DNA of 35,768 nt from a virus. The DNA is taken from the IMG/VR virus record IMGVR_UViG_3300009537_000079, positions 1-35,768 of that record. One strand, written 5' to 3'. The notes under the pieces are model-generated. The model was not told where the DNA came from. It saw nothing but the letters and a program-made list of their open reading frames with translations, and searched no databases. A program made the position numbers and the translations under genes. How positions within the stretch are numbered: the first letter of the stretch is position 1; each line of letters opens with the position of its first letter. Below, in pieces: positions 18,763 through 34,621 of this stretch.

Positions 18763-19493
18763 ATAAGGGTATATTTGGTTTTCATAATTCTCAGATGACT
18801 GTAATTGCCGCGAGACCTGGGGTTGGAAAAACGTCTTTGATTTGTCAGGTTTCGGCTTATATGGCGAGGCAGAATAAGAAAGTGGCTTTAATAAGTCTTG
18901 AAATGACAAGGGAAACGATTTTAGAGAGGATGTTTTGTGTAGAGCAGGGGGTGAATGGTTTTGATTTAATAATGGGTAGAATGGATGGGGTTATAGAGAG
19001 AAAATTAAGTAAGTTTTGTGCTGATATTGGAAGGACGGCTTTAAGGGTAGTTGATGATTATTGTTATACAGAGAATGAATTATATACGCTTATTGAATAT
19101 CTTGAATTTAGACCTGAAGTTTTGATTATTGATCATATACAACATATCAGATCGGAGGGTAAAAGAACTCAGTGGGAGACATTAACGCAGTATTTGTCTT
19201 TTTTAAAAGAAATAGCAATGAAATATAAGATTGCTGTAATTGTTATTTCTCAAATAAATAGAATGGGTGAATTTGCCCCAACTTTGGCAAATTTAAAAGG
19301 AACCGGGGCAATAGAGGAGATGGCTGATCATGTTTTGCTTATGCACCAACTAGAAACAAATGAAGTGGATGGGAATAATTTTAAAATACAAATTGCTAAG
19401 AATAGGTACGGACCTTGCGGAACTTTTAATTTATATTTTGACAGGGAAAGATATAGGTTTTTTAATTCATATCGGGAAAGTAAAATTGCATGA
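18624..19493 (+). CDS. DnaB-family replicative helicase, core domain only
   Basis: This is an ATP-driven ring helicase of the replication fork. It has 289 residues, little more than the RecA-like core of DnaB. Motifs: Walker A RPGVGKTS (Lys69, Thr70), the DnaB SLEMT motif (91-95), Walker B VLIIDHIQ (Asp170), VISQINR (207-213), and KGTGAIEEMADHVLLM (225-240), which matches DnaB motif 4. The N-terminal primase-interacting domain of full DnaB is absent. The ribosome site is GAGGAGG. By eye the gene is clearly more A+T-rich than the structural genes. The initiator sits just upstream and a small gene follows in an ATGA overlap. Confidence 0.9.
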   Translation: MLTDGRGEFTKKYPKFEPLGNTLERVIENITSRTGKPEYESGLEVLDKGIFGFHNSQMTVIAARPGVGKTSLICQVSAYMARQNKKVALISLEMTRETILERMFCVEQGVNGFDLIMGRMDGVIERKLSKFCADIGRTALRVVDDYCYTENELYTLIEYLEFRPEVLIIDHIQHIRSEGKRTQWETLTQYLSFLKEIAMKYKIAVIVISQINRMGEFAPTLANLKGTGAIEEMADHVLLMHQLETNEVDGNNFKIQIAKNRYGPCGTFNLYFDRERYRFFNSYRESKIA

Positions 19494-20194: not shown

Positions 20195-20333
20195 AGGGTG
20201 GTTATTCACGGCAGTCGTCATCAGTGTTGCGGCGGGTATATTTGTGTTAGGGGTTACAGCCGGTTACCAACTGCGCGGGGTTAAAGAGTATCATGATTGG
20301 AAGAAGTTGTATGAGGAGGCGAGGGAATTGTGA
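20184..20333 (+). CDS. 49-aa single-span membrane protein
   Basis: AAGGAG precedes ATG 20184 by 9 bases. One transmembrane helix (FTAVVISVAAGIFVLGVTAG) is followed by a short polar tail ending YEEAREL. The last codons contain an 18-base element, repeated at 20559, that supplies the ribosome site of the next gene. The function is unknown. Confidence 0.58.
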   Translation: MKDEGWLFTAVVISVAAGIFVLGVTAGYQLRGVKEYHDWKKLYEEAREL

Positions 20334-20859: not shown

Positions 20860-21091
20860 GGGTGAAATGGACGCACCAAAAGTTCCTGAAGGAATGACGA
20901 AGATGAATGGGGTGGGGGAAATGGACACAGATAGAGGAGCTATGAAACCAATAATTATTGATTTATCAAACGGTTGGGACACTAAGGAAATATCAAAGCT
21001 GATAACAGCCTTGCCATGCTCTGAAGCCGATAAACAAATTATGGAGGCTCAAAATAAGGTATTTAAAGCCCTAGACCATAAGGAGGGGTGA
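20849..21091 (+). CDS. Hypothetical early protein, 80 aa
   Basis: ATG 20849 follows GAGGGTGGGG. The first 30 residues are Met/Gly/Glu-rich and look unstructured (MESEGEMDAPKVPEGMTKMN); this stretch contains a one-mismatch version of the GATGAAAGGGGTGG cassette. The rest is a small folded unit (PIIIDLSNGWDTKEISKLIT). The C-terminal codons (KALDHKEG) lie inside a 20-base element repeated at 21328. Confidence 0.55.
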   Translation: MESEGEMDAPKVPEGMTKMNGVGEMDTDRGAMKPIIIDLSNGWDTKEISKLITALPCSEADKQIMEAQNKVFKALDHKEG

Positions 21092-21347
21092 TGCACCGAG
21101 AACAGGAAGATAAAAAAACTACGATGCCCTATTCAGAAGTGTGTAGAGATTTAAGCGAACCTTTAGAGAAAAAAGTTATGTGCGGTGAAGTTATTAAAGA
21201 AAGTGAGATTTGTGAATTGTGGTCAGATTCTTCTAACGATTGCGCTTGGTTATTAAATTATATGTTGTCTATGGGATACACTTTTTATCCAGTTTCAAAA
21301 GAATATAGGCCATTATGGAAAAAGAGCAAGCCCTAGACCATAAGGAG
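21066..21347 (+). repeat. Duplicated 20-base junction element
   Basis: AAGCCCTAGACCATAAGGAG occurs identically at 21066-21085 and 21328-21347. In copy one it is read as codons for A-L-D-H-K-E. In copy two it is read in another frame and its TAG is the stop codon of the upstream gene. Conservation across different frames points to selection or recent copying at the DNA/RNA level, probably as a portable ribosome-binding junction. Confidence 0.75.
21091..21336 (+). CDS. Hypothetical protein with several Cys, 81 aa
   Basis: AGGAGG lies 4 bases before ATG 21091; a GTG at 21088 is also in frame. The product has four scattered Cys (VCRDL, VMCGEV, ICELW, DCAWL) and an aromatic C-terminus (YMLSMGYTFYPVSKEYRP). 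It terminates inside the second copy of the repeated junction element. The family is unknown. Confidence 0.58.
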   Translation: MHREQEDKKTTMPYSEVCRDLSEPLEKKVMCGEVIKESEICELWSDSSNDCAWLLNYMLSMGYTFYPVSKEYRPLWKKSKP

Positions 21348-21971: not shown

Positions 21972-21994
21972 CCCCCGAAAGGGATAAGGCCATC

Positions 21995-22093
21995 ATGACC
22001 GATTGCAAGAGATGTGAAGGTAAGGGGTGGTATTGGGTACAGAACGGCCCTGATGATGTGGACAGGGAAGCGTGTGATGACTGTAACAGTTGA
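21995..22093 (+). CDS. 32-aa DnaJ-type zinc-finger miniprotein
   Basis: The frame MTDCKRCEGKGWYW... CDDCNS carries CxxCxGxG and a closing CxxC, the repeat unit of DnaJ zinc fingers (four Cys for one zinc). Stand-alone units like this are common in phage early regions. The upstream sequence has GATAAGG as a weak ribosome site. The motif is convincing despite the length. Confidence 0.6.
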   Translation: MTDCKRCEGKGWYWVQNGPDDVDREACDDCNS

Positions 22094-22107
22094 TCTTTGA
22101 GAGATGT

Positions 22108-22185
22108 CCGGTGGGTAAAATTTGATAAGTCCAAGCGGTTGAGCGTATTCGCGTATTCGTCTTGGCGCATTTCCCTGCCCACCGG
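22108..22185 (+). ncRNA. Candidate structured RNA between small genes
   Basis: CCGGTGGG (22108-22115) pairs with CCCACCGG (22178-22185), extended to 10 bp by U-G and A-U pairs. Inside, CCAAG (22131-22135) pairs with CTTGG (22161-22165), and GCG-TATT-CGC (22143-22152) can form an apical hairpin. A tandem GCGTATTC repeat lies within. The element occupies the only gap of about 100 bases in this part of the operon and ends 9 bases before an ATG. It could be a leader regulating the next gene, an RNA-processing site or an independent RNA. It lacks T-arm and D-arm features of a tRNA. Confidence 0.45.
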
Positions 22186-22194
22186 TCTTAAATT

Positions 22195-22293
22195 ATGGGA
22201 GAGATTGAAGTCGTGAGGCTCAATGAGAGGTGCCTTGGCGGCAAGATTGTACATCTACCGCCCTCTCCCAACAGTTATGAGGAGGATGGATGA
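22195..22293 (+). CDS. 32-aa hypothetical protein
   Basis: The frame MGEIEVVRLNERCLGGKIVH continues to a Pro-rich end and stops at TGA overlapping the next ATG (ATGA). The ATG is 9 bases after the structured segment at 22108-22185, and no ribosome site other than that structure is evident. The coupled stop is the main support. The function is unknown. Confidence 0.4.
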   Translation: MGEIEVVRLNERCLGGKIVHLPPSPNSYEEDG

Positions 22294-22430
22294 AGAACGT
22301 TGAATGGGATGACTCGCCTTGGAAAGAATTACAAAAGTATCGTCAAGGGGTAGATATTGGCTTTGTGATTGGGTTCGTCGGCGGTAGTTTGTTATGGTTG
22401 CTCTATGTCAATTATCATGGATGCTTTTGA
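22290..22430 (+). CDS. 46-aa single-span membrane protein
   Basis: GAGGAGG lies just upstream and the ATG overlaps the previous stop. A polar N-terminus with several aromatic residues (MKNVEWDDSPWKELQKYRQG) leads into one glycine-rich transmembrane helix (IGFVIGFVGGSLLWLLYV). The function is unknown. A 64-base gap follows that contains one copy of the GATGAAAGGGGTGG element. Confidence 0.58.
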   Translation: MKNVEWDDSPWKELQKYRQGVDIGFVIGFVGGSLLWLLYVNYHGCF

Positions 22431-22476
22431 CCCACAACCCTGAGGGGATATGAGACTACGAGAGGATAACAGAGGG

Positions 22477-22705
22477 GATGAAAGGGGTGGATGAATGATT
22501 ACATTCAAAGACATATGTGACATAGTTGGAAGAACGCCTGAAGAAGTTATGGAGATTATTAAAGGGGAGTATACGATTAGTATAATCGGACCAAAACCCA
22601 AGGAGAAGGCGTGTCATCCAAAAAACCATGAATTAGAGAATATTTACGGAAAGAAAAAATGTGATAAGTGCGAAAATTATTATAAGGAGGAGATGAAAGG
22701 GGTGG
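22477..22705 (+). repeat. Repeated ribosome-binding element GATGAAAGGGGTGG
   Basis: Identical 14-base copies at 22477-22490 and 22692-22705 each lie 3-4 bases before a start codon (22495 and 22709). A copy with one mismatch (GATGAATGGGGTGG) is at 20902-20915. Together with the two other junction repeats nearby, it suggests that starts in this operon have been spread by copying. Confidence 0.6.
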
Positions 22706-23526: not shown

Positions 23527-23713
23527 TTCTGCCTTTGACGGGGTTAATTTTGAACAAGCAATGAGAGAGGGAAAAGGGTATGCCAGGTCGTACTCGGAGG
23601 GGATTTGGTCAATTAATAAACAAATGACAAGAATTGCCGATAGCTTAGAGGGAGAGCCTGTCGCATGTAATGGGTTTGGAGACGTTACGGATGGATCAGG
23701 AGATACGGTTTAG
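23480..23713 (+). CDS. Small early-region lipoprotein, 77 aa
   Basis: GAAGGAG precedes the ATG. The product starts MRLLILIAAITLMGC, with the lipidated Cys at residue 15. The mature part of about 63 residues is polar (DSAFDGVNFEQAMREGKGYA). An exported lipoprotein in an early operon away from lysis genes is the context of known superinfection-exclusion lipoproteins that block phage receptors, an idea only supported here by position. Confidence 0.62.
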   Translation: MRLLILIAAITLMGCDSAFDGVNFEQAMREGKGYARSYSEGIWSINKQMTRIADSLEGEPVACNGFGDVTDGSGDTV

Positions 23714-24065
23714 TAGTAGTTACAGGAACAAAGTCAGGCCGGTTCTTTCCACGGTTAAACCTAATTATCCACAGCCGTACAAGGAGTTGGTTCGGGGAAT
23801 CATTACGAGAGCGTTCCAGGATGCGGTGTTTGATCCCAGGATGATTCAGGCTGAGGGGTCGACGGCTAAGAGTCAGAGGGTGGTGTCCATGTTAGATAAG
23901 ACGACTGGGATTGAATTCATGCGCTCTAAGAGGTTGGAGTGGTGGATTGATCATTCACAGCTTAATATAAACGCGCAATGTTTAAGGGATGAGATGGAGC
24001 GAAGACTCAAGGAGGAGAGGGCGAGACCGAGTATAAGATCGAATCTGTTTGCCAAAGTCGCATAA
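23691..24065 (+). CDS. Hypothetical protein ending the early operon, 124 aa
   Basis: From ATG 23691 (MDQEIRFSSSYRNKVRPVLS) the product is basic and helical, with a conserved-looking YPQPYKELVRGIITRAFQDA segment and an Arg-rich C-terminus (MERRLKEERARPSIRS). ATG 23670 would add 7 residues. No family is recognised; a nucleic-acid-binding role is plausible. The last codons contain the -35 box of the strong promoter at 24049. Confidence 0.62.
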   Translation: MDQEIRFSSSYRNKVRPVLSTVKPNYPQPYKELVRGIITRAFQDAVFDPRMIQAEGSTAKSQRVVSMLDKTTGIEFMRSKRLEWWIDHSQLNINAQCLRDEMERRLKEERARPSIRSNLFAKVA

Positions 24066-24076
24066 AAGCGTATAAT
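24049..24076 (+). promoter_or_regulatory. Near-consensus sigma70 promoter with palindromic -10
   Basis: TTGCCA (24049-24054, five of six) and TATAAT (24071-24076, six of six) are 16 bases apart, the best promoter in the window. The -10 lies inside CGTATAATATACG (24069-24081), an odd palindrome around one A that could be an operator. The predicted start at about 24083-24084 coincides with the first base of the hairpin that follows. Confidence 0.75.
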
Positions 24077-24083
24077 ATACGTT

Positions 24084-24187
24084 GGAGATAAAGCAATAAC
24101 GAGGGCAAGCTATGGCTTTATCTCCAAATAGAGCGTACACACCTAGGAACCGGGAAGGGCTATAAACCCTAACCGGTTCTTTTTTTT
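24084..24187 (+). ncRNA. Candidate 104-nt phage small RNA (or attenuator leader)
   Basis: The unit runs from the promoter at 24049 to an intrinsic terminator. The 5' end forms a stem GGAGATAAAGC (24084-24094) with GCTTTATCTCC (24115-24125), perfect and extendable to 13 bp with 24082-24083 and 24126-24127, around a 20-nt loop. A single-stranded linker (24128-24146) leads to the terminator hairpin. This two-hairpin plan with the 5' end starting on the stem is typical of stand-alone bacterial small RNAs. The loop also holds GAGGG followed by ATG at 24112, so a 17-codon peptide (MALSPNRAYTPRNREGL) could be read, with its stop inside the terminator loop. That would fit translation-controlled attenuation of the downstream genes. 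Confidence 0.6.
24147..24187 (+). terminator. Rho-independent terminator
   Basis: GAACCGG (24147-24153) pairs with CCGGTTC (24173-24179), and inside it AGGG (24156-24159) with CCCT (24167-24170) across a symmetric 2x2 internal loop. The apical loop is 7 nt. Eight T residues follow (24180-24187). It separates the early operon from the terminase/head genes. Confidence 0.85.
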
Positions 24188-24349
24188 ATGATCGAACGAA
24201 ACAATTTACCCTTCAGGGATTGGAAGCGGCAGAAGCGGTTGACTTTAAAAAAAAGACTTAAATTAAAGACTTTGGTTGAGAGCAAGGGTGAGCGAAAGAG
24301 GGTCATTCCGCTTTACAAGCTTTATGCAAAATATGTTTTCGGGTTATGA
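24188..24349 (+). CDS. 53-aa strongly basic protein
   Basis: The frame starts at the ATG directly after the terminator T tract and has no convincing ribosome site. It is very basic (DWKRQKRLTLKKRLKLKTLV, then GERKRVIPLYKLYAKYVFG) and would bind nucleic acid. The stop overlaps the next start as ATGA, which supports reality. Expression would need read-through of the terminator or another promoter. Confidence 0.5.
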   Translation: MIERNNLPFRDWKRQKRLTLKKRLKLKTLVESKGERKRVIPLYKLYAKYVFGL

Positions 24350-24504
24350 TTTATCAAATGTCAGAATTGATAGAAAACCTGATGGATTTCGCACCCTATT
24401 TCCTTGCAGTTTCAGCTTTTGTGTTATTGGCAGATATTATATTTTCGGGTCCGTCACCGGAGTACGAACTTGATGAAAGCGATCTCCCGCAGATAGATGA
24501 TTGA
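24346..24504 (+). CDS. 52-aa single-span membrane protein
   Basis: It starts in an ATGA overlap. A short N-terminus is followed by one transmembrane segment (FAPYFLAVSAFVLLADIIF) and an acidic tail (PEYELDESDLPQIDD). It overlaps the SGNH hydrolase gene by 8 bases. The function is unknown; together with 24188 it forms a small basic/membrane pair in front of the head module. Confidence 0.52.
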   Translation: MIYQMSELIENLMDFAPYFLAVSAFVLLADIIFSGPSPEYELDESDLPQIDD

Positions 24505-25045
24505 GCAAGCGATCTATGCCTTAGTTATAGCCGCCATAGGAGATTCCACCACGGTGGGGAGTATTGGCTCATCCACGGGCCAGGAAGTCTTAGCCCCATA
24601 CACCGATCACCTACAGGAAGATGATTGGGAGGTGCATAACTTCGGAGTAAGAGGGGAGAGAAGCGAGCAAATCCTGGCAAGATTCCACGAAGTAGAAGCC
24701 TTAATGCCTGACATAGTAATAATTTGGGTCGGGCAAAACGACCTCACGATCCACAGAACCGCCGCCTCAGTTATAAAAAACGTCAGAGTTATGGTGCAAA
24801 GAGCAAAAAAGGGGGGAATTAGGCCAATTGTAATGACTGTGCCTGTATTCCCCTATGCACCACCGCAAGTGAAATCGGAGATTCGTATATACAACGCACT
24901 CTTAGAGAGACTCGCGCTTGAAAAACAGATAGATTACGTGGTGATAGGAAAGATAGGTTCTGATGATGGAATCCACCCGGATGCACTCACGTATAAAAAC
25001 ATTGCAAAAGATGTCAGGGAAACAATCCTTGAAAGCGACAATTAA
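24497..25045 (+). CDS. SGNH hydrolase without a clear signal peptide, 182 aa
   Basis: This is a predicted esterase or lipase-like hydrolase. Blocks: IGDSTTVG with nucleophile Ser17, GVRGERS (Gly53), WVGQNDL (Asn81) and DGIHPDALTY (Asp157, His160). Between them are standard strand/helix elements (PDIVIIWVG, RPIVMTVPVFPY). The N-terminus (MIEQAIYALVIAAIGDS) is hydrophobic but runs straight into the catalytic strand, so a cleavable signal is unlikely. This is therefore probably a cytoplasmic form, unlike the exported SGNH protein at 9361. The position before terminase is unusual for a receptor-modifying enzyme. Confidence 0.83.
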   Translation: MIEQAIYALVIAAIGDSTTVGSIGSSTGQEVLAPYTDHLQEDDWEVHNFGVRGERSEQILARFHEVEALMPDIVIIWVGQNDLTIHRTAASVIKNVRVMVQRAKKGGIRPIVMTVPVFPYAPPQVKSEIRIYNALLERLALEKQIDYVVIGKIGSDDGIHPDALTYKNIAKDVRETILESDN

Positions 25046-25266: not shown

Positions 25267-25506
25267 ATGCCTAAACTAAATAGCATGGAACTAAAGCACA
25301 AAAGAAAGATTTTAAATTGGGCTGGTGAGAATTGGGGAACGATAAAAGAATCGAATAAAACTAGAATTTGGTGCGCTCTACTCTCCAAGGAATTACCAAG
25401 TAAAATAGAGGGAATTGGATTTCAAAATGTTGTCGTCTTCAGAAGTCAAAACCAAGTATCTGACCCTCAATCCGAAACAAGACAAGTTCATCTTCAGCGA
25501 GAGTGA
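25267..25506 (+). CDS. Candidate small terminase subunit, 79 aa
   Basis: The gene starts after AGGAAATTTATT and overlaps the large terminase by 80 bases in another frame. The first 50 residues are basic and helical (MELKHKRKILNWAGENWGTI, then KTRIWCALLSKELPSKIEG), consistent with a small DNA-binding domain. The last 30 are unstructured. Small terminase subunits normally sit here, but this is shorter than most and has no recognisable signature. Position is the main evidence. Confidence 0.4.
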   Translation: MPKLNSMELKHKRKILNWAGENWGTIKESNKTRIWCALLSKELPSKIEGIGFQNVVVFRSQNQVSDPQSETRQVHLQRE

Positions 25507-32648: not shown

Positions 32649-33350
32649 ATGGCAAAACGTGATTTGCAGACTCTAGCGGATTTGGTTGAAGATATTGTTG
32701 ACAAAGACCGGGCTGATACGACTTTTGATACGTTTGTTCAAAACATGCTTGTCCTAACGCTTCAGGATATTATTGCGAAGGTTCCGCATGCTCGTTGGCT
32801 CTTGGAGGAACACTCGATTACTTTGGTGGCGGATCAGCAGTATGTAACTCTCCCAAGTGACGTGGACATTGACGGGATCGTGTCAATGCGCGATGACTCA
32901 AACAACCGGAAAGTGTCACGGATTAGCGCGACTGAAGCGGATATGATTGACCCTGGCCGTGATTTAGGCGGGCCGGTGTTGTTATGGTGGTTTCAAAGGA
33001 TTGCAGGGGCAGACCGAATCTATTTTGTTCCGACTCCCGATGCAACGGATTCCTTGACGCTTATATCCGGGGAGATTATCACGGACCCCTCGGCGGCGCA
33101 GACAAGTGCATTACCGGCAAAGTACGAGTGGGTGCAGATGGCTGGGGCAATTTCAAAGATTGCCACAAGATTAGGGCCGTCAGTGGACGGACGGTTTTAC
33201 GATGACCAATACAAAGAGGGGTTAGCTGTAATTTTACGTGACGCAAATTCGGCTCCTGGCGAGTCGGACGTTATGGCTTCACACAGACCGAGAACCAGTG
33301 CAGGCACTCACGGGGCATCTTTCCCGGCGAACTTTGACGTATCACCTTGA
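32649..33350 (+). CDS. Head-tail adaptor / connector protein, 233 aa
   Basis: It is predicted to bind under the portal as the first tail ring. Helical N-terminus (LQTLADLVEDIVDKDRADTT), then TLQDIIAKVPHARWLLEEHS and a beta region with DQQYVTLPSDVDIDGIVSM, which is characteristic of P22 gp4-like and related phage adaptor proteins. The C-terminal helices include KYEWVQMAGAISKIATRL and the extended tail is polar. Position between decoration and tail genes agrees. The stop overlaps a TTG start downstream. Confidence 0.78.
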   Translation: MAKRDLQTLADLVEDIVDKDRADTTFDTFVQNMLVLTLQDIIAKVPHARWLLEEHSITLVADQQYVTLPSDVDIDGIVSMRDDSNNRKVSRISATEADMIDPGRDLGGPVLLWWFQRIAGADRIYFVPTPDATDSLTLISGEIITDPSAAQTSALPAKYEWVQMAGAISKIATRLGPSVDGRFYDDQYKEGLAVILRDANSAPGESDVMASHRPRTSAGTHGASFPANFDVSP

Positions 33351-34621
33351 TAAGAGAATATAACCTGAAGATCGACTGGACTTTGCTCTTTATCATACTG
33401 CTTCCCACGTTCTATGTAGCGGGGCAGGATTTACGGGCGTACCAGACTAATTTCTTTCAGATTTCAGCGATTGTTTTAGTCGGGCTTATGCACGTCAACA
33501 AGTGGTTAGGGTTGTTCCTTTTGTGGTGTACTTTCCAGTTTGTGTTCATGAAAGGGATGCCGATTCAATCCTCGGCGTTACAGAATGTTTTTTTTGGCGC
33601 GGTGATTTACCAGTTTATCGTGATCTTCTCGAATCTTGCTGAGTTACGAAAGTATTTATGGGCGTTCTTTGGCATCCTGATTTTAAATGTGTTCTGGATC
33701 GTATTGCAGAAGAACCAGATTGATCCTTTGTTTTTCCCGAGGGACGCGCATTTGCAGACTGTTTTCAGTGACGTTTCCGGGTTCTTCGCGCTCCCGGCGT
33801 TCCTTGGAAACTATGCGGCGGTGGTATTACCGATTGCTTTCACGCTGACCAATACGTTGATTCCGTTTGCGTTGATTGCGCTTTTTTTCTCGAAGTCCAC
33901 GTTCTCGGTCATGGCGGCTCTTGGCGCGTCATTGTTTTATTTTTGGTTCAGGAAACGGATTGTGTTTTGGCTCATCTTGGGGGTGTTTGGAAGCGGGGCG
34001 TTGTTTTATACCTTGAAGGTTGATTACCCATCAGGGCAGTTCAACCGCAGATTGAATGTTTGGCAGTTGATCATAAGACAAGCGTTCCAGAAACAGTTTT
34101 TCGGGCATGGCATTGGGAATTTTAAAAGATTCACGTTCCTTGAGGCCATCCCCTCTCATAATCTGATTGGGACAGATAATATTTCTGAGGTTAAGAAATT
34201 TATGATAAACGAAGCTCTTGCAACCGGAGACAAGGCGTTTGCCGAGAAGGTTGCCAGCTCGGATCATCTTTTAAAAGCAAAAGCAATATTTAAAAAGAAG
34301 AAAGTCAATGATCATTTCATGGACGTTGAGAAATGGGAACAGGCGCACAATGAATTTCTCCAAGTATTTTTTGAAACCGGACTTGTGGGTATATTTATAT
34401 TGTTTGCTTTTATTGTTAATCTTTTCAAGAGATTTATTCGATACGCTTGGGGCAGTCAGGAGACTTTGGTTCTGATGGCGTGTTTCGTGGCAATCTTGAT
34501 AAACTCGGTCGGGCATTTCCCGTTTCATGTGGCGCGGCTTGCCGGGCCGTTCATAGTTCTTATTGCGTTACTTGATGCAATGCTGATCAAAGCTCAAAGA
34601 AAAATGGTGTCGGAGATTTAA
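33347..34621 (+). CDS. O-antigen ligase/polymerase-like membrane protein (Wzy_C type)
   Basis: This polytopic inner-membrane protein has 424 residues and roughly ten predicted helices. It shows the conserved Wzy/WaaL pattern: Arg234-Arg235 followed by LNVWQ, the FFGHGIGNF motif (251-259), AHNEFLQVFFETGLVG (333-348) with the His/Glu pair, and terminal helices. About 70 charged residues are inserted between the last two motifs as a large periplasmic loop. The family joins or polymerises lipid-linked glycan chains in the periplasm. The TTG start is coupled as TTGA to the adaptor gene, with no ribosome site of its own, so low-level late expression is likely. Phages carry such enzymes for seroconversion, but usually elsewhere in the genome. 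Confidence 0.8.
   Translation: MIREYNLKIDWTLLFIILLPTFYVAGQDLRAYQTNFFQISAIVLVGLMHVNKWLGLFLLWCTFQFVFMKGMPIQSSALQNVFFGAVIYQFIVIFSNLAELRKYLWAFFGILILNVFWIVLQKNQIDPLFFPRDAHLQTVFSDVSGFFALPAFLGNYAAVVLPIAFTLTNTLIPFALIALFFSKSTFSVMAALGASLFYFWFRKRIVFWLILGVFGSGALFYTLKVDYPSGQFNRRLNVWQLIIRQAFQKQFFGHGIGNFKRFTFLEAIPSHNLIGTDNISEVKKFMINEALATGDKAFAEKVASSDHLLKAKAIFKKKKVNDHFMDVEKWEQAHNEFLQVFFETGLVGIFILFAFIVNLFKRFIRYAWGSQETLVLMACFVAILINSVGHFPFHVARLAGPFIVLIALLDAMLIKAQRKMVSEI

Follow-up and report, generated by a model that had tools for sequence, protein, structure and literature searches.

A Compact Promoter–Hairpin–Terminator Element, a Candidate Late-Operon Leader, at the Early/Late Junction of an Uncultured Phage Genome

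Introduction

Few phages, mostly lambdoid and T7/T4-like ones, have had the control of their late genes worked out in detail. In phage lambda, the promoter pR' lies at the end of the early module, its short transcript, the 6S RNA, stops at the intrinsic terminator tR', and the late genes are expressed on read-through. In the lambda genome, which was used as a control, the promoter is at 44552 and the terminator is near 44774, with orf-64 annotated inside, at the Q/late boundary. In phage HK022, two stem-loops of the put RNA bind the zinc-binding domain of the RNA polymerase beta' subunit and suppress terminators. This RNA of about 70 nt is a cis-acting antiterminator formed by two stem-loops just downstream of its promoter (PMC9378689). 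Among Hfq-dependent phage RNAs, the lambda 6S RNA is listed with an unknown function (PMC12197685). The IsrK RNA of Gifsy-1 acts in trans, and its read-through isoform is an mRNA (PMC4825925). In the conAn system of processive antitermination in pLS20-type plasmids, a long operon begins by encoding an RNA and a protein component (PMC8955417).

Here, we analyze an element located between the early and late genes of IMG/VR virus record IMGVR_UViG_3300009537_000079. The whole stretch of DNA under study (35,768 nucleotides, positions 1 to 35,768 of the record) is referred to below as the window.

Genome Context

All major genes of the window are on the plus strand. The module upstream of the element encodes an exonuclease, a replication initiator/helicase loader, and a DnaB-like helicase; downstream, there are GDSL lipase, TerL, portal, and capsid genes, with the major head protein further on. 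An internal virion protein and an endolysin are encoded at the other end of the record, which is apparently permuted. The ORF immediately upstream of the element (23670–24065) has no match among Pfam, PHROG, NCBIfam, and PDB sequences, and its structure model is unusable (pLDDT 43).

Several other features of the gene map can be noted. In the early module, an exact 20-nt direct repeat, AAGCCCTAGACCATAAGGAG, carrying a ribosome-binding site, precedes successive genes (21066–21085 and 21328–21347), and a second, similar repeat pair is found at 20308 and 20559. The region 21972–22494 (523 bases) contains no plus-strand ORF of at least 50 aa and may hold small ORFs or non-coding sequence. In the late module, the GDSL lipase/acylhydrolase ORF (24497–25045) lies between the element and the terminase, and overlapping start and stop codons link it to the two small ORFs that precede it. 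A 79-aa ORF at 25267–25506, which has an AGGA Shine-Dalgarno motif and stands immediately ahead of TerL, overlapping it, is a plausible small terminase subunit.

Promoter, Hairpin, and Terminator

A sigma-70-type promoter (24049–24076, plus strand) lies partly within the final codons of the upstream ORF. It consists of TTGCCA (24049–24054), a 16-nt spacer, and TATAAT (24071–24076), scores 11/12, and is the only plus-strand site of the window with a score of at least 10/12 and A2/T6. When looser spacing was allowed, one further 11/12 site was found, at 19438. The number of 11/12 promoters expected per shuffled window is 0.59 (300 dinucleotide shuffles of the window, as for the estimates below), and a promoter of such quality, taken alone, is not rare. 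We infer that transcription starts at about G24084.

At about this point begins a hairpin (24082–24127, plus strand) with a 20-nt loop and 13 perfect pairs, 11 of them from G24084 onwards; its arms are TTGGAGATAAAGC (24082–24094) and GCTTTATCTCCAA (24115–24127). The window contains no second perfect inverted repeat that reaches 10 bp with a loop of at most 30 nt, and the number of 13-bp perfect repeats expected by chance is 0.0067. It is followed by an intrinsic terminator (24145–24187, plus strand) composed of a 9-bp stem, a 2x2 internal loop, a 4-bp stem, a 7-nt loop, and T8: AGGAACCGG-GA-AGGG-CTATAAA-CCCT-AA-CCGGTTCTT, with T8 ending at 24187. Its folding energy is −20.9 kcal/mol, and it is the only strong terminator on the plus strand of the window. 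The standard terminator scan missed this unit owing to the internal loop; simple terminators of 7 bp plus T6 are expected at 0.033 per shuffled window.

The whole RNA (24083–24187) folds with −40 kcal/mol (z = −5.5), and no shuffled sequence folded equally well. Each of the three parts is exceptional in 35.8 kb, and their joint occurrence in register within 140 bp is far beyond chance. The features that the preliminary description had reported for this locus were confirmed: the position at the boundary of the early and head modules, the TTGCCA/16/TATAAT promoter, the perfect 11-bp stem (13 bp with flanks), the terminator with eight T residues up to 24187, and the length of 104 nt, counted from G24084 to 24187. 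The start, which it placed at 24083–24084, can be narrowed to G24084 as the most likely +1, and the TT/AA flanking pairs of the stem may thus fall outside the RNA. There is no Rfam covariance-model match at the gathering score in the window, and the comparison of Rfam with this element and with its counterpart described below gave sub-threshold chance matches only.

Counterpart in a Distant Relative

A comparison with 50,697 phage records revealed no close relative, and searches with the single proteins TerL, MCP, and internal virion protein, as well as the peptide and terminator pattern searches, gave no relatives or matches. The 68 loci collected with a two-row TerL alignment are related in TerL only, apart from one weak portal match. 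An exact stem pattern was found in one IMG/VR contig, where it lies inside the coding sequence of an unrelated phage, and in six genome contigs without resemblance beyond the stem; all these cases were taken as chance.

A search with the DnaB-like helicase revealed the distant relative IMGVR_UViG_3300020202_000147 (40,729 bp, loci L088–L091), which has its genes on the minus strand and a helicase that is 68% identical. Weaker matches were found for the overlapping ORF 18424, the HNH-type ORF 19605, TerL, the head protein, the Wzy-like protein, and ORF 24188, the first ORF after the terminator; otherwise, the DNA of the relative is recognizable only around the helicase.

Directly before the homologue of ORF 24188, the relative has the stem GGGGGATAGAG-26 nt-CTCTATCCCCC, then ATAGAGTCTTTACT. 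This stem of 11 perfect pairs, followed by ATAGAG, occupies the same place as in the window; no other repeat on the coding strand of the contig reaches 10 bp with a loop of at most 30 nt. The stem is followed by the terminator AAGCCCTAG-TT-GTCC-TAACC-GGAC-TT-CTAGGGCTT, a T-rich tract, and GTG. The distance from the stem start to the next start codon is 106 nt in the relative and 104 nt in the window, and the z value of the relative's element is −5.3. Both strands of 0.95 Mb were scanned with a descriptor, which returned only the units of the window and of the relative, plus two weak chance matches. As for the promoter, TTGTCA is located 36 nt before the relative's stem (TTGCCA in the window, 35 nt before the stem), and no acceptable −10 box was found there, the best one scoring 8/12.

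Since MAFFT misaligned the two elements, their pairs were matched manually on the basis of structure. The geometry of the terminators is identical (9 bp, 2x2 internal loop, 4 bp) and their sequences are different, with 8 of the 13 pairs changed on both sides. In the 5' stem (24082–24127), a lack of compensatory changes would have refuted the preliminary description, and such a lack is not seen: two of the ten aligned pairs have both partners altered, and eight are unchanged. In total, 10 of the 23 aligned pairs carry double-sided changes, a count based on two sequences, the window and one relative. The occurrence of the same unit in the same place with these paired changes indicates that the element is a conserved structured RNA. 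A role of the inverted repeats as DNA operators is disfavoured, as the spacers are not of the same length (20 versus 26 nt; 6 versus 5 nt) and stem complementarity is kept. The ORFs upstream of the element show no detectable homology between the window and the relative, whereas the downstream ORFs are homologous; thus, the element belongs with the late operon.

Linker, Internal ORF, and First Late ORF

In both RNAs, AUAGAG directly follows the 5' stem and is the sole common part of the two linkers. It can form 7 bp with the 3' arm of the stem (GCUUUAU/AUAGAGC in the window and ACUCUAU/AUAGAGU in the relative), giving an alternative hairpin that is mutually exclusive with the 5' hairpin: GCTTTAT-CTCCAA-ATAGAGC (24115–24134, plus strand) in the window and ACTCTAT-CCCCC-ATAGAGT in the relative. 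The alternative pairing was matched by 3.7% (0.037) of shuffled linkers for the window and by 0.06% (0.0006) for the relative. It partly follows from the repeat of the 5' arm, and a second conserved pairing is a lead rather than a result.

A possible small ORF of 17 codons, MALSPNRAYTPRNREGL (24101–24165, plus strand), absent from the preliminary description, lies within the RNA. Its Shine-Dalgarno motif GAGGG (24101–24105) stands six nt before the ATG at 24112; the ATG is located in the hairpin loop and the TAA stop codon (24165) in the terminator loop. The loop of the relative contains a purine-rich GAAGG, though no ATG, GTG, or TTG start. The back-translated peptide has no match in IMG/VR. 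This ORF is probably not essential.

ORF 24188 (24188–24349, plus strand) encodes a protein of 53 aa, the most basic one of the window (pI 10.9; the homologue has a pI of 12.0), and its stop codon overlaps the next start (ATGA at 24346). The homologue is located at L090:19248–19072 (minus strand) and was recognized by a local score of 76, the maximum in 2000 shuffles being 48. The protein is predicted to form a basic helix with moderate confidence (pLDDT 73), and fold and profile searches gave no credible match. In both phages, the start codon of this ORF comes directly after the U tract and has no Shine-Dalgarno motif. As the first base of the ORF is the one that follows the U tract, a promoter would not fit between the terminator and the gene, and its mRNA must come by read-through. 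This geometry favours a leader/attenuator.

Comparison with Known Systems and Possible Function

The window has the same arrangement as lambda pR'-tR'/6S: its early module ends with a promoter that would give a short transcript, an intrinsic terminator follows within about 200 nt, and the late genes would be expressed on read-through, with a small ORF inside the leader in both cases. In contrast to lambda, its RNA has a 5'-terminal hairpin of 11–13 bp and is 104 nt rather than about 190 nt long; no homologue of Q was recognized, nor any N or other antiterminator family in the window. The promoter-proximal −10-like pause element with T6 was not found in the first ~50 nt either, where only GATAAA and AATAAC occur, both without T6. 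A boxA search in the leader gave 8/12 matches to lambda boxA in the window (2.5% in shuffles) and 6–7/12 in the relative. HK022 put is likewise a structured RNA just 3' of a promoter; however, put acts on early operons, the second hairpin of the window is itself a terminator, and the likeness is one of structure. IsrK shares with the layout predicted for the window a short terminated RNA and a read-through mRNA from one prophage promoter, with a small ORF downstream (PMC4825925). The gene upstream of IsrK encodes a Q-like antiterminator, its RNA acts in trans, and the resemblance is one of layout. The likeness to conAn is also one of layout, namely an RNA and a protein component at the head of a long operon; the late strand of the window, in contrast, has no further strong terminators.

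We are inclined, with somewhat more than even confidence, to regard the element as a leader/attenuator of the late (head/packaging) operon, giving an RNA of ~104 nt by default and the late genes on read-through; by analogy, a mode of action like that of lambda pR'-tR' is favoured. A host-type RNA polymerase would start at about G24084, and the nascent RNA would fold at once into the 5'-terminal hairpin. Termination would be efficient enough for most transcripts to end at 24187, leaving a stable RNA, and the late genes would be made only when the polymerase passes the terminator, given that the U tract leads straight into the first late ORF. Regulation would come late in infection, when read-through may be raised by a factor that targets either the 5' hairpin or the polymerase. 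One candidate is an antiterminator that binds RNA, a part that the very basic first late protein could itself play (positive feedback); an autogenous role of this kind for the ORF 24188 product, whose helix is a prediction, is an attractive guess. Alternatively, a ribosome or an RNA switch between the two exclusive hairpins may act. A complete phage RNA switch, in which two mutually exclusive conserved hairpins precede the attenuator and the basic protein binds the leader to make read-through self-amplifying, unrelated to N, Q, or put, seems improbable.

The leader/attenuator is supported by the unique strong promoter, hairpin, and strong terminator within 140 bp, but a leaky terminator insulating early from late transcription would look identical. 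Such a plain early/late boundary, with an ordinary terminator, unregulated leakage, and a 5' hairpin that merely stabilizes the RNA or sets basal late transcription, is rather unlikely in our opinion. In its favour, modules are commonly separated by terminators, stems at the 5' terminus are known to stabilize the 5' ends of mRNAs, and no regulator was recognized; it leaves unexplained the dedicated strong promoter directly before a strong terminator, the retained stem with ATAGAG, and the conserved start codon touching the U tract. Coupling to translation, whereby ribosomes starting at ATG 24112 would read 17 codons, stop in the terminator loop, and block terminator folding to allow read-through, would account for the spacing of GAGGG, the stop codon within the terminator loop, and GAAGG in the relative. 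However, the ORF is not conserved, its peptide has no database match, and a Shine-Dalgarno/ATG pair within 100 nt is not improbable, which makes this mechanism very unlikely.

The interpretation in the preliminary description is supported in part: a compact unit above chance is present at the early/late junction and is conserved. This support does not extend to a stand-alone small RNA; against its independence stand the poor −10 box of the relative and the ORF start abutting the U tract. A free-standing RNA of ~104 nt acting in trans, using the loop or the AUAGAG linker to pair with mRNAs of the phage or the host, perhaps with Hfq/ProQ, would fit the compact promoter–hairpin–terminator layout, the long U tract, the stable fold, and the shape conserved in the relative, and it has precedents in lambda 6S (PMC12197685) and IsrK (PMC4825925). 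Nevertheless, loop and linker pair no better than shuffled sequence with the phage translation starts that were examined, the linkers share ATAGAG only, and no clear separate promoter is seen at this place in the relative; we consider this alternative unlikely. The proposed timing of the switch by the RNA agrees with a conserved unit at the junction, but the element travels with the late ORF, and its geometry implies a leader/attenuator in cis.

If the leader/attenuator is real, a structured element common to two very distant uncultured phages would represent an independent solution to late-switch timing. It is compact enough for a test in one in vitro transcription experiment, and the elements of the window and the relative can serve as a pair of seeds in metagenome searches for the family.

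Additional Features Shared with or Found in the Relative

The structural module of the window encodes a membrane protein with an O-antigen ligase/polymerase (Wzy_C) domain (33347–34621), which is unusual for a phage head/tail region; a homologue with 31% identity is also present in the structural region of the relative. In addition, the relative contains, at L089:10863–11226 (minus strand), a TTGTTA-16-TATAAT promoter with two strong terminators ~300 nt later, which may produce a second short transcript.
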